Shown: positions 29,501 to 38,500 of the stretch, piece by piece
Layout: every line of letters begins with the position of its first letter
How positions within the stretch are numbered: position 1 is the stretch's first letter
Assembly (NCBI RefSeq): GCF_020382885.2
Contig: NC_058499.1
Coordinates: 13,191,872-13,255,871, forward strand
From: Scatophagus argus
Taxonomy: Eukaryota > Chordata > Actinopteri > Scatophagidae
Length of the DNA stretch: 64,000 nucleotides
Direction: 5' to 3'
Notes under the pieces: model-generated
What the model saw: the letters and a program-made list of their open reading frames with translations, nothing else
Database searches by the model: none
What the model was told of the DNA's origin: nothing
Position numbers and translations under genes: made by a program

Positions 29501-32500
29501 AAGGACAGAGACAATGTATGTGTGTGTGTGAAGGGGCAATAATCACAGAGTATGAGAGAAGCTAGTGAGGCTGCCTACTGTGCCAGCAGCCAGCAGGCAT
29601 TTCCTCTAGCAAGCCAAGCATGCATGAGATCAAAGTGTGTGTGGGAGTGTGAGTCTGCGAGTGTGTATCCACTGGGTGCCATTGGAGTCTTCAGGCCTAC
29701 ATGCAGAAACAATTAAGGGCAAGATGACAGAGAGAGTAGTCACAGGGGGTGAGAGAGTGTGCAGTGGGCTTTTGGGGCACATTTATGTTGCGTTGTTGGT
29801 GAAAATGTGCACAATAAGCAGGACAGAACACTCTGTGTGGGTGAGGAGTGAACGTGAGACAGATAGAGAATTCTTAGTCCAACCTCAGCAGGAGTCCCAC
29901 ATGTTTGTTCGACTCCATTATGACAGGAGCCTGTGTGTCACCTCAAATACAACGACTCCAGTATACTGCCCTTCAATAATAAGGTACTCTAAACAGTATA
30001 CTCTGGCAAATGATAGTAATACAAACTACATTGGGGGAAAAACATGTAAAACTACCAGGATGATGCTTTAAATCTATATTAGCTGATTTTTGGACACTTG
30101 GAAGCAGCACAGCAAGCAGTAAACAAAACATTACAAATGGAGTCCTTATGAAGTGGATATTGTGAATGTCTCAGGCAAAAAGTTGCCTATTTGCATATCG
30201 AGCATATCACAAACAGCATTAGCATTCATTAAAGGCAGAATAAGTAAATAAGCCGGTTGCAGTTTGTGAACACTACGCTCAAAATGTGCCCACCCTTTCC
30301 ACCCCAAAAACACCAGATGAATATCTACATTGTCTTTTAGGAAAATCCTACTCACTCACACTTAAGAATTGTCTTTCAGATCACCAGAAAATAATTAACT
30401 TTGTTTTTAGGCTCTACCAACTCCTGAAGGAAATATCTAGTTCATAGTAGCTAAATCCTGGCGATAAAATATATCTTAAAGAGTTCTTTTCAGAATGTAA
30501 AAGTGGTCATACAAATGGATAATGCTGGTATGAGATGAAACTATTTCAAAACATATTTTTAGCAGTCATCCTTATCATGAAGTTCTTTCCGTTTCTCTGT
30601 GCTCACAGAAACGATAACAGCACAAGCCAATGGTCCAGTCTCTTCCTAGTGTAGTGCAAAGCTGTTGGAAGTACTTTTTCCATTTTTCTGGGAAACAATC
30701 CAGTGTTTACCAGTCATGGCATATTACATGGTTTCCAGTGGCTGGATCCCGCCACTCTGTGAAACAGGAGCCACAATTGTGCATATGGCAGACTGCCTCA
30801 GGGTAACCACGGCAACGGGACTGATGGCAGAGGTCAGGGCAGGTGATTGGTGCAGAACCAAGGGGACAGCCGCTGAACCAGTGAAGCTTGAAACAAAACC
30901 TACAGACAATGTTTCAAGGGAAAGGGGATCACAGCATGGGTTGAAATTAAAAAATAAAAGAGAGAAAAGAACGGAACAGATTCAACTTACTGTTCAAGAG
31001 GTGACTTTTGCCTAATCTTGTATCTTAATCTTAATCTTGTAAAATCAACTACATCTCACATACCATTTCTACCAAAACATTTTTGTTTCAAAAATCTCTA
31101 ACTCACTGTTGTAGATGTAAAATAAAGCATGCATCTGCAGTTGCGTGGCCTTGAGTCATTGAGAAACCGAAGTTAATAGACTGAAATTGAAAACTGACCA
31201 ATAACAGCTTAGCAAGTGGTGTATTTTCCCAACCAGATGTAGGGAGGGGTCATGTTGATGTCTAGAATAAGCAAGACATCTGCCATTTATCAACTGTAGA
31301 ACCTTCTTCATACCTTCAATGCCTACTGAGCCATGTCATACCACAATGAGAATCTATCAGGAAATTGTGTGATGCTGATACCTGTGATCCGGTGTGAGTG
31401 GAACCCATATGTTGCTCCTATTTTCAGTAGCTGCCGTATTAGTATCATCACTCTCTGGTTTAACTTGTCCCATCCATTCCTTCTGTAGTTGACTACTCAG
31501 TGAACTGCTTTTGTCTGTATCAAAAGTCATCCAGTCCTGTACAGCCAAGTGCTGGGGAAGAGGGGTGATTGGGGGGCATGTTCGGGTGATACGGCTTAGA
31601 GCTCGGTCACTGGATGACATCAGCTGTTGCTGCGTGTGAAAGTAGATCCGCAGATAATGTGGCCCACTGAAGAACCAGTTGCACCTGTCCTGGTCATAAC
31701 CATCTGTTCGAAAGCCAAATACATCAAACCCACCACGATCCAAACCAAATGGATTAAAGCCATAGATACTGTAGCCTTTGTCACTGAAGAACTCAGACAT
31801 TATTTTGTCTCTGTGTGTCTTATTATCATTCTTTTCATTCTCATCGTTCTGTTCATATTCCTTCTTCTTCTCTGTCTCAAATACCTCATCTCTATGCATC
31901 CCAAACCATGTGACATTAGAACGGTTAAAACCATAGCGGTTGAAACCAGATACATCATATTCATCCCTATCAATGAAGTCCCGGTTAAAACCATCTTTGC
32001 CGTAGCCCCACCTGTCCCAGCCGCTCTTATCATAGCCATCACGATCATATCCATGTTGATCAAAGCCACCAAAGACAAAGCTATTTTCATTAGAAGTGTG
32101 TTTGTCAAAGCCACGGTATTGATATTTCTGACTTCCTTGTGAGCGTCTTTGAAATGATGTAATATTACAGGGTGCACCAATAGTTATAGGCACATATACA
32201 ATACACATCTGCTGTTGGGAAGAAATCACATCATCAGGGGTAACATCAAAAGGCTTCATCCACACACGCCTCTGTTTAGCAGGGTAAAGGATGCTGCTCT
32301 GAGCTAGACCGTCTATAAGAGTTTTTCTTTTTGATCCATGCTGATGTTTCTCTTGCCACTGTACCCACAACTTGTCCATGAATGCCATGTGTGAAAGATA
32401 TAAAGGGTCATAAGATGCCAGAGGTGAAGCCATATGACCCCCTACCCAAAGCCTAAAGAGACCAGAAAACATCTGCAAAGACTGGGAGAACATTTGGAAG

Positions 32501-35500: not shown

Positions 35501-38500
35501 TGAAGTTGTTACAATTCATCCTCTGAGCGTCTGTCCAATTTTTCATGGCAATTCATTCAGTAGTTATTAAGATATCTGGACTGAAGTGGTGCACTGACTG
35601 ATTGATTGACTGACATCGCCAGCCCCAAACATTGCCACTAGCATGGCTAAAAAGCCTGTAAATGAAATAAATTTTCACATCATGGACCAACATGGATATT
35701 TCTTTGTTTTGTAACATTGTTTTAACCTGTTCTAATCCACTGGTACTAAAATACCTTTCTCAGCTGTCTGTGGCACAATCGTCCTTTGGTGTTTGGAGGA
35801 CAGGAGCAGTAAAACGCACCAGGGTCAGACGCCAAAACAAAACATACGCCTCCATTTTGACAGGGATTAGACAGACAAGGGTCTGACAGAGGGGCAGCCA
35901 TCTGCAAACTACCTACTTCAAGACCAGTTAAACTTGTGTTAGCATTATGTTGTTGGAGGTGTGTCAAAATCTGTATGTATCAAAGTTACATATAGAAAGC
36001 AAATGAAGGAATGAGGTAGAGAAAAAGAGCTGTCAGTTGCTCATTACCTTTGATGTTACCTTGGCATGTGACCTTTCCAGATGTGCATGTACACACAGCG
36101 TTGAGGTCAGTCTGCCAGCGTTGACCATCCTCTACTTCATGGCCCTCCCACATACATCTCTTCCTCACACACTCACATCCCTCCAGGTACTGCACACGTG
36201 CCTGCAGGTCTGCATTCTGTAGAAAAACAAAAATCGATATTGACACGTGATCACATCATTCGACATTCTTACTTTATCATGGAAAACCACATAATCCCAC
36301 TGCAATATGCACCTGAGTTTTGACCATATCCAACATACGAGCCAGCTCCTCTAGCCTCTTCTCCAACTTCTTGAGCCTGTCATCTTTCTGTGCCTGAGAA
36401 GCGGACTTTACTCCATGAGGAGATCCTGGAGGGCCCAGCACCACACCTCTCTGCACCTGGTCATTCTGGACATCCTGTTGATAATGGTTGGTTTTGTCCA
36501 TTGGCCTGTGGCTAGTCTGAGATTTACTGGGTGATGCATCCTGCTGGAACATTCGACTGCTGTCAGTTTGAGAATCCAAGCTACGGGCATCTGCGTATCC
36601 AGATGGAGGGAGAGCATCTGGAAAGAGAAAGCAGCAATTGGTGGGAGAAGAGAATCTTCAAGAATTTTTGAATGAATAAAAGAACAAGTTTAGAGCCTAA
36701 ACAAACATCCTGGGAAAAGCTGTCCAAATTAAGACCCACACTAAACAATAATAAACAAACTGTTGGGGGACTTTCTTCCTTAGGGCCAAAAGATTTGATC
36801 TAATTCACATAAACCATGGTGGTCTCCAGACTCAGCTTAAACTCACTGTGAGAATGAGAGGAGTATCTCAATGCTTGGAATTCTAGACAGAGTTGCAAAA
36901 TAAAGTTCACTCAGTAATTTAATAGTTGCTGTAATAGCTGCTCAGTCACAGAAATTCATGTTATATCCCCCTCCAAGAGAACTAAAAATATAATAAATTA
37001 TTGTGGTCAGTAATGAAGAGAGCGAATGGAGCAAAGAAAAAAAAGAAGGAAATTACACTTTAGCCTCCGGCCCGCCAGCATGCTGTTGCAAACTGATAAA
37101 TGGATGCACATGGACACACACACAACTGTGCGCACACAAATATGCATATAAATATATAGTGTCTAGAAGAACAGGAAATCAATCACAGCTCTGCACTGAG
37201 CTTTGATATGTTTATTTTGAAAGATGTGTTTGTAGGGTATTTCTGCCAATCTGCTTATCGGTGCTCAAACACAGTTACATTATGTAGCTTGATGTGACCC
37301 TCCAAACAAAGAAATTCATATAGATGTCCTTCGTTTACCTGTCACATTGTTACAGATCCATGGTCTCTTTAGATATGCTTTCGCTGAAATCTCAGCTGTC
37401 TTCAGATATCCCTGCATTCATAAAGAAAAATAAAAATGCATACATTTGCTGTATATTCAGAATGCACACTGCAAGGCAGCAGAAAATCTGTGGTATTCTG
37501 TATGTTATGCAGAATAATTGCATACATTTGGGGCATACAGTACTGTAGTTTCAAAGACTGGTAGGTTGTTGTGTTTTTGATGCATGTGTGAGAATGTGTG
37601 AGAAACTCACACTAAATTTGGTATCCTTCTTTCCTGGTGTGCTGGCAAGAGTGATGACAACATCCTGAGGCAGTTCTAGGTTGATTCCCTCTACACTTTT
37701 TATTGGCAGAATTACAGCTTCTTGACAGTCTACAAAAAATACCAGTCCATGAGTCTCCAGGCTCACAGCTAGCTGTACCCACTCCTCCCGGGAGAAGGGG
37801 TTTCTCCTTGGGAAGTGAAAGCTGGCCAGGTTCTGAGCTCCTCCACCAGTTTGGTAGTCCAAACGCAGAGTGTTATTGATGGTGGAGGAGACGATTTGAA
37901 GAAGGATCGAAGATGCAGACGAGAGAGAAAAAAGAGTGGCAACGGAGCCCGACGCCTGATGCCCCACCAAATGCACCCCCATGCCACCCTGAAGGTTGGA
38001 GTGCAAGAAGTGGGAATATTCTTGAGGAAGAGTCAAATACGGTGCTCTAGGACGTATTCTGTATGCCACACTGCCTGGATTCTGCAGTCTAGACACACCA
38101 CTTGTGTGGTGGGACATGTTTAGAGCAGCCAGAAGGTCAATCACTGGGAAAGAGATGAAACAGAGTCCGATTTGAGACATCCGTACTGCATGAGGTTGTG
38201 CTCTCTGTGTAAAACAAGGATGACACTGTGGTTTCTGGGTTGTGGTGACTGTGAGTCTGTGTGAGAGGGAACCAGAATGAAGCCATTCATCGGGTGGTCA
38301 CACATGGCTGCCTCGCTGACCTCAAACACAACAACAGGCCAGCATCATACGGTCAGTCTGATCTGTCTGTCTCCCAGTTTATTTTTTAAATTTGGAGATA
38401 GCTCTTCACTGCTAAAGGTTGAAACTGAAAGTTATGAGGAAGTTTGTTTGGGTTTGGTGTCAGTACATGTGCACAAGTACTTAAAATACAATGAATACTA

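Follow-up and report, generated by a model that had tools for sequence, protein, structure and literature searches.

A predicted tyrosinase-fold pseudoenzyme inside the kielin/chordin-like gene of Scatophagus argus and its possible use as an alternative 3' end

What is a tyrosinase-like domain doing inside a kielin/chordin-like (kcp) gene, and do its exons belong to kcp, to a gene of their own or to a relic? The question is raised by five minus-strand exons (30707-35915) in a 64-kb window of Scatophagus argus DNA, the window being the whole stretch analysed, whose minus strand carries kcp. A sequence-only reading had proposed that these exons stand on the kcp strand, after the N-terminal exons and before the VWC array, and that their internal splice phases match. 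We find all five where it had placed them, with GT-AG borders, agreeing phases and no internal stop before a single TAA. In transcript order, the region reads as follows.

39439..39541, minus strand: kcp exon 1, with the start codon and a leader resembling a signal peptide (leader judged by eye)
37611..38143, minus strand: kcp exon 2, LamG/TSPN-like domain (Laminin_G_3 16 bits, cut-off 27.6)
37339..37411, minus strand: kcp exon 3 (open frame, GT-AG borders, phase)
36313..36617, minus strand: kcp exon 4, coiled-coil-like by eye, phase 0 end
36048..36216, minus strand: kcp exon 5, first VWC-like module by eye, phase 1 end
35755..35915, minus strand: block exon 6, EGF-like (22.3 bits); 5' border at 35970, 35915, 35912 or 35901
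33107..33824, minus strand: block exon 7, Kunitz-like (28.3 bits), half a VWC-like module (by eye) and the beginning of the tyrosinase domain
32673..32992, minus strand: block exon 8, CuA half of the tyrosinase domain (Pfam, alignments)
31382..32550, minus strand: block exon 9, CuB half of the tyrosinase domain and Gly-aromatic-Asp/Asn repeat (Pfam, alignments, shuffles)
30707..30899, minus strand: block exon 10, Cys-rich tail and stop codon (placed by frame; no Pfam match)
28808..28881, minus strand: next kcp exon, first half of the second VWC, continuing the frame of exon 5 if the block is left out
14548..28783, minus strand: remaining kcp with VWC array, VWD, C8 and TIL (frames scanned; exon borders not worked out)

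The host gene has the architecture of KCP, a VWC array followed by VWD, C8 and TIL, which the proposed block isoform does not have. In host-gene frames downstream of the block, Pfam profiles match C8 (82.2 bits), TIL (41.3 bits) and VWD (44.8 bits, covering the first 33 of 156 profile positions), and VWC scores above its cut-off in three of the five VWC-like host frames scanned. Neither the LamG-like domain of exon 2 nor the first VWC of exon 5 gave a Pfam match over cut-off, and the kcp N-terminus as a genome query found itself as sole match. Its neighbours in the window include a DnaJ gene (3702-4250, plus strand) and an EF-hand gene (54991-55353, minus strand) that we take to resemble calumenin; as human calumenin presumably sits near KCP, the naming of the host as kcp would gain support from this neighbour. 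Open frames on the plus strand at 43143-49722 look by eye like a divergent cadherin-like membrane protein, and three cadherin-like frames from this stretch gave no Pfam match.

Joined together, kcp exons 1-5 and the five block exons form a spliceable, open frame of ten in-phase exons and 1,246 residues. Exon 9 holds the longest frame of the window (397 aa); frames in 60 simulated 64-kb windows reached 243 aa at most. The phase 1 end of kcp exon 5 fits the block acceptors 35912 or 35915 and also fits the next VWC exon; the phase 0 end of exon 4 fits an alternative acceptor at 35970, which is preceded by a 57-base AG-free stretch and gives a form of 1,209 residues. The acceptors of the EGF exon are mediocre, and a simple PWM from eight acceptors gives no decision among them. 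Between the block stop and the next kcp exon there is no AATAAA, and an ATTAAA lies at 29488. Used as a query against the whole genome (570.7 Mb, 48 contigs), the block found only itself and is single copy at the sensitivity used. The intron that separates its EGF exon from its Kunitz exon contains a stretch (34850-35230) that looks by eye like a mobile-element remnant, presumably Tc1-like.

Modules of the EGF, Kunitz and VWC types depend on passage through the secretory pathway, and the EGF exon comes without a leader of its own. Our scan of 9 kb upstream of the block found no separate leader exon for it; the scan returned one candidate, at kcp exon 2 (mean in simulated sequence: 0.45), and is not exhaustive - it can miss weak leaders, since kcp exon 1 itself was missed. 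The simplest reading is that the kcp leader would be borrowed through alternative 3' splicing. Because the frames match from the kcp exons and no separate leader exon was found, we favour, as rather probable, the view that the block provides alternative 3' terminal exons of kcp which give rise to a secreted pseudo-tyrosinase matrix protein. In the transcript structure that we infer from the sequence, the EGF exon would be spliced onto kcp exon 5 (or exon 4), and the product would be a secreted protein of ~1,210-1,250 residues. Its N-terminal part would be made up of the kcp leader, the LamG-like domain, the coiled coil and (when spliced from exon 5) VWC1, and the block would add EGF, Kunitz, half a VWC, the tyrosinase fold, the aromatic repeat and the Cys-rich tail. 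Skipping of the block would give ordinary KCP. Hence, as envisaged here, the block isoform would keep the KCP N-terminus and swap the VWC array for a non-enzymatic matrix module.

With a stop codon of its own and domains that form a complete set, the block may also fit an independent gene in kcp intron 5, one with its own promoter and an undiscovered leader exon that makes a secreted pseudo-tyrosinase; a phase-0 exon from another place could be joined at acceptors 35970 and 35901 as well. However, the EGF exon follows kcp exon 5 at a distance of just 77-146 bases, depending on the acceptor chosen, and the (imperfect) search of 9 kb for a leader argues in the same direction, so to our minds such a gene is rather unlikely. 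The block had been described as nested within kcp: its position inside the gene stands, but an alternative 3' end is more likely than a free nested gene.

The domains first recognised by eye are borne out by profile searches. A PF00264 search, which the sequence-only reading had named in advance as a check, returned a significant Tyrosinase match (70 bits, E 4.8e-19, cut-off 22.6, residues 703-861), and the exons that it had called EGF and Kunitz-like both score over their Pfam cut-offs, Kunitz in exon 7 with 28.3 bits (cut-off 21) and EGF in exon 6 barely so with 22.3 bits (cut-off 21.5). Its Gly/aromatic/Asp repeat holds up, too: there are 12 units of G-[FYW]-[DNG], a pattern picked after the sequence was seen, and 10 of the 11 distances between them are divisible by 5; in 5,000 shuffles, the mean number of units was 0.8 and the highest 5. 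Between the Kunitz and tyrosinase domains, ~160 residues (33170-33659, minus strand; 170 residues scanned) match no Pfam family, and this stretch has regular cysteines. No membrane segment, such as gamma proteins have at their C-terminus, was seen by eye in the last exon (exon 10). Alpha proteins bear a signal peptide and are not membrane-anchored; here a leader would come solely through kcp exon 1.

Can the tyrosinase domain be an enzyme? We compared its ligand positions with 18 bacterial rows, mostly Streptomyces, and five gamma rows from the fish itself; all six positions are His in 18/18 and 5/5 of these, respectively. In the block domain, none of the three CuB ligands is kept (His to Ser, Arg and Met), the first CuA ligand is Arg, the third CuA His is kept, and the second is Gly in the ungapped alignment or His if a two-residue shift is allowed. 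This leaves one or two of the six histidines, all in CuA (1-2/3). By the H2(8)H3 spacing rule for type-3 copper ligands, as it appears in the excerpted text of Aguilera 2013 (PMC3658974), the second CuA position is Gly and the third CuB position Met, which leaves one ligand of six. The non-ligand His of the neighbouring HH pair is kept. Of 28 further columns that the bacterial rows conserve, the domain keeps 25; with two ligands counted as kept, the loss of ligands relative to these columns gives a Fisher p of 0.0096. The fish's own gamma rows keep 15-20 of the 28 columns, figures that are in part an artefact, since these rows were cut to few exons.

Judged by these residues, the block domain is a tyrosinase-fold pseudoenzyme, with the fold retained and the binuclear copper site gone. 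A tyrosinase-type enzyme is rejected because of the ligands lost (all three in CuB and at least one in CuA). Of the secreted matrix-type protein envisaged by the sequence-only reading, secretion stands as probable; by sequence, the loss of copper ligands speaks against a tyrosinase-type enzyme. The idea of an active copper enzyme whose metal site is unusual might appeal to the one CuA His that is kept, to another His two residues off its expected place and to the retained His of the HH pair, but with Ser, Arg and Met in place of the entire CuB triad we consider it highly improbable. Loss of four to five of six ligands would also be in line with a decaying relic, i.e. a block drifting and unexpressed after its metal site was lost. 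Against this, all ten exons are open with GT-AG borders, the other conserved tyrosinase columns are kept almost throughout, and EGF and Kunitz still score above their Pfam cut-offs; a relic is, in our opinion, improbable. Returning to the pseudoenzyme as part of a kcp isoform, a fold that is kept when its copper site is lost suggests an extracellular role for the domain, most likely in binding or as a structural element; via the N-terminal part in common with KCP, it might modulate BMP signalling or the assembly of the matrix. The Kunitz domain carries Glu directly after its second Cys, as read from the translation rather than an alignment. Trypsin-inhibiting Kunitz domains have Lys or Arg at P1, and we take the residue after the second Cys to be this inhibitory position. 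With Glu there, the Kunitz domain, too, may not be a trypsin inhibitor, if the numbering holds.

Where among the tyrosinases does the domain belong? PF00264 matches at least five other loci in the genome, and the five are all of gamma type and have 6/6 histidines each. By resemblance, we take two of them to be tyr, two tyrp1/dct and one (on contig C1) a divergent tyr. The block domain has the tyrosinase fold in common with vertebrate tyr, tyrp1 and dct, yet differs from them in its lost ligands and in profile scores. The gamma rows consist of tblastn-found exons only and so lack what joins CuA to CuB as well as the domain end; for this reason HMMs were compared on shared columns: the alpha models gave 81 bits (five rows) or 76 bits (18 rows) and the gamma model only 35 bits (five rows), which agrees with the earlier suggestion that this fold is unlike the genome's tyr/tyrp genes. 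Shared-column identities were 27-36% to alpha rows versus 21-27% to gamma rows, and the untrimmed domain scored 70 (five-row alpha), 64 (18-row alpha) and 30 bits (gamma) with the same models. Plasmid records matching the domain (tblastn, E 1e-3) number 37, each covering at least 80% of it; seven of the 37 were aligned, and identity to these plasmid-borne bacterial tyrosinases is 26-31%. Bacterial rows from genomic contigs represent 80 of 561 confirmed loci, nearly all Streptomyces, and 11 remained after clustering. In a PDB search haemocyanins and bacterial tyrosinases came out on top, with o-aminophenol oxidase also among the relatives; exon 9 against genomic and viral contig collections gave 20 and 11 pattern matches, none of them a confirmed relative.

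In a 28-row tree, the window row falls among bacterial rows (support 86/80, open fork) on a very long branch (3.92), and in the best tree a branch supported at 98/96 has the five own gamma loci on one side without the window row; an AU test does not reject a tree that holds the window row with gamma (p 0.177). Taken by sequence, the block domain is one that resembles bacterial and molluscan alpha-class proteins, unlike the fish's own tyr/tyrp genes. An alpha origin is likely, and we put it no more firmly since animal alpha sequences in the comparison were limited to haemocyanin fragments.

How does such a protein compare with known systems? To our knowledge, KCP has no tyrosinase domain. If spliced as proposed, the block isoform would have the leader, coiled coil and VWC1 in common with KCP, but, in contrast to ordinary KCP, would not continue into the VWC array, VWD, C8 and TIL. 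Alpha type-3 copper proteins (bacterial tyrosinases, molluscan haemocyanin) are the best sequence matches of the block domain, which differs from them in lacking the copper ligands, in being part of a multidomain protein and in residing in a vertebrate. A further system to compare is Tuphoxin, which the excerpted report describes as a secreted ascidian alpha tyrosinase with EGF domains and ties to the extracellular matrix (PMC9395347); like it, the block protein is from a chordate, combines tyrosinase with EGF and is predicted to be secreted. However, the active-site residues that the block domain lacks are reportedly retained in Tuphoxin, and it has TSP1; the same excerpts mention no VWC or kcp link, and Kunitz turns up there solely in the title of a reference (PMC9395347). 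Its BLAST relatives are given there as other ascidians, molluscs, annelids, fungi and bacteria (PMC9395347).

Excerpts of the survey by Aguilera 2013 describe the alpha subclass as absent from 'hemichordates, echinoderms, cephalochordates and chordates' and place urochordate haemocyanins inside it (PMC3658974). An alpha-like domain in a fish contrasts with this absence from vertebrates, so far as the excerpted survey reports it (PMC3658974). In line with the earlier supposition that the protein is undescribed in vertebrates, we found no description of it, and neither a vertebrate alpha tyrosinase nor a kcp-tyrosinase link, among the titles and abstract openings listed from the literature searched, a scope that leaves out most subscription journals; automatic fish annotation may carry the domain unnamed. 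Tentatively, and with rather more doubt than for the splicing itself, we suggest that an alpha tyrosinase lineage might survive in this fish as a pseudoenzyme joined by alternative splicing to the N-terminus of a BMP regulator, which would give a matrix protein of undescribed design. If true, with a pseudoenzyme swapped for the VWC array, one gene would yield two extracellular proteins by a novel route.

Among the gamma loci, the one at C1:20140462-20141361 is a divergent gamma-type tyrosinase-like gene that belongs to neither the tyr pair nor the tyrp pair. Over CuA it shares ~47% identity with tyr, and the segment from the first CuA histidine to the second is shortened.
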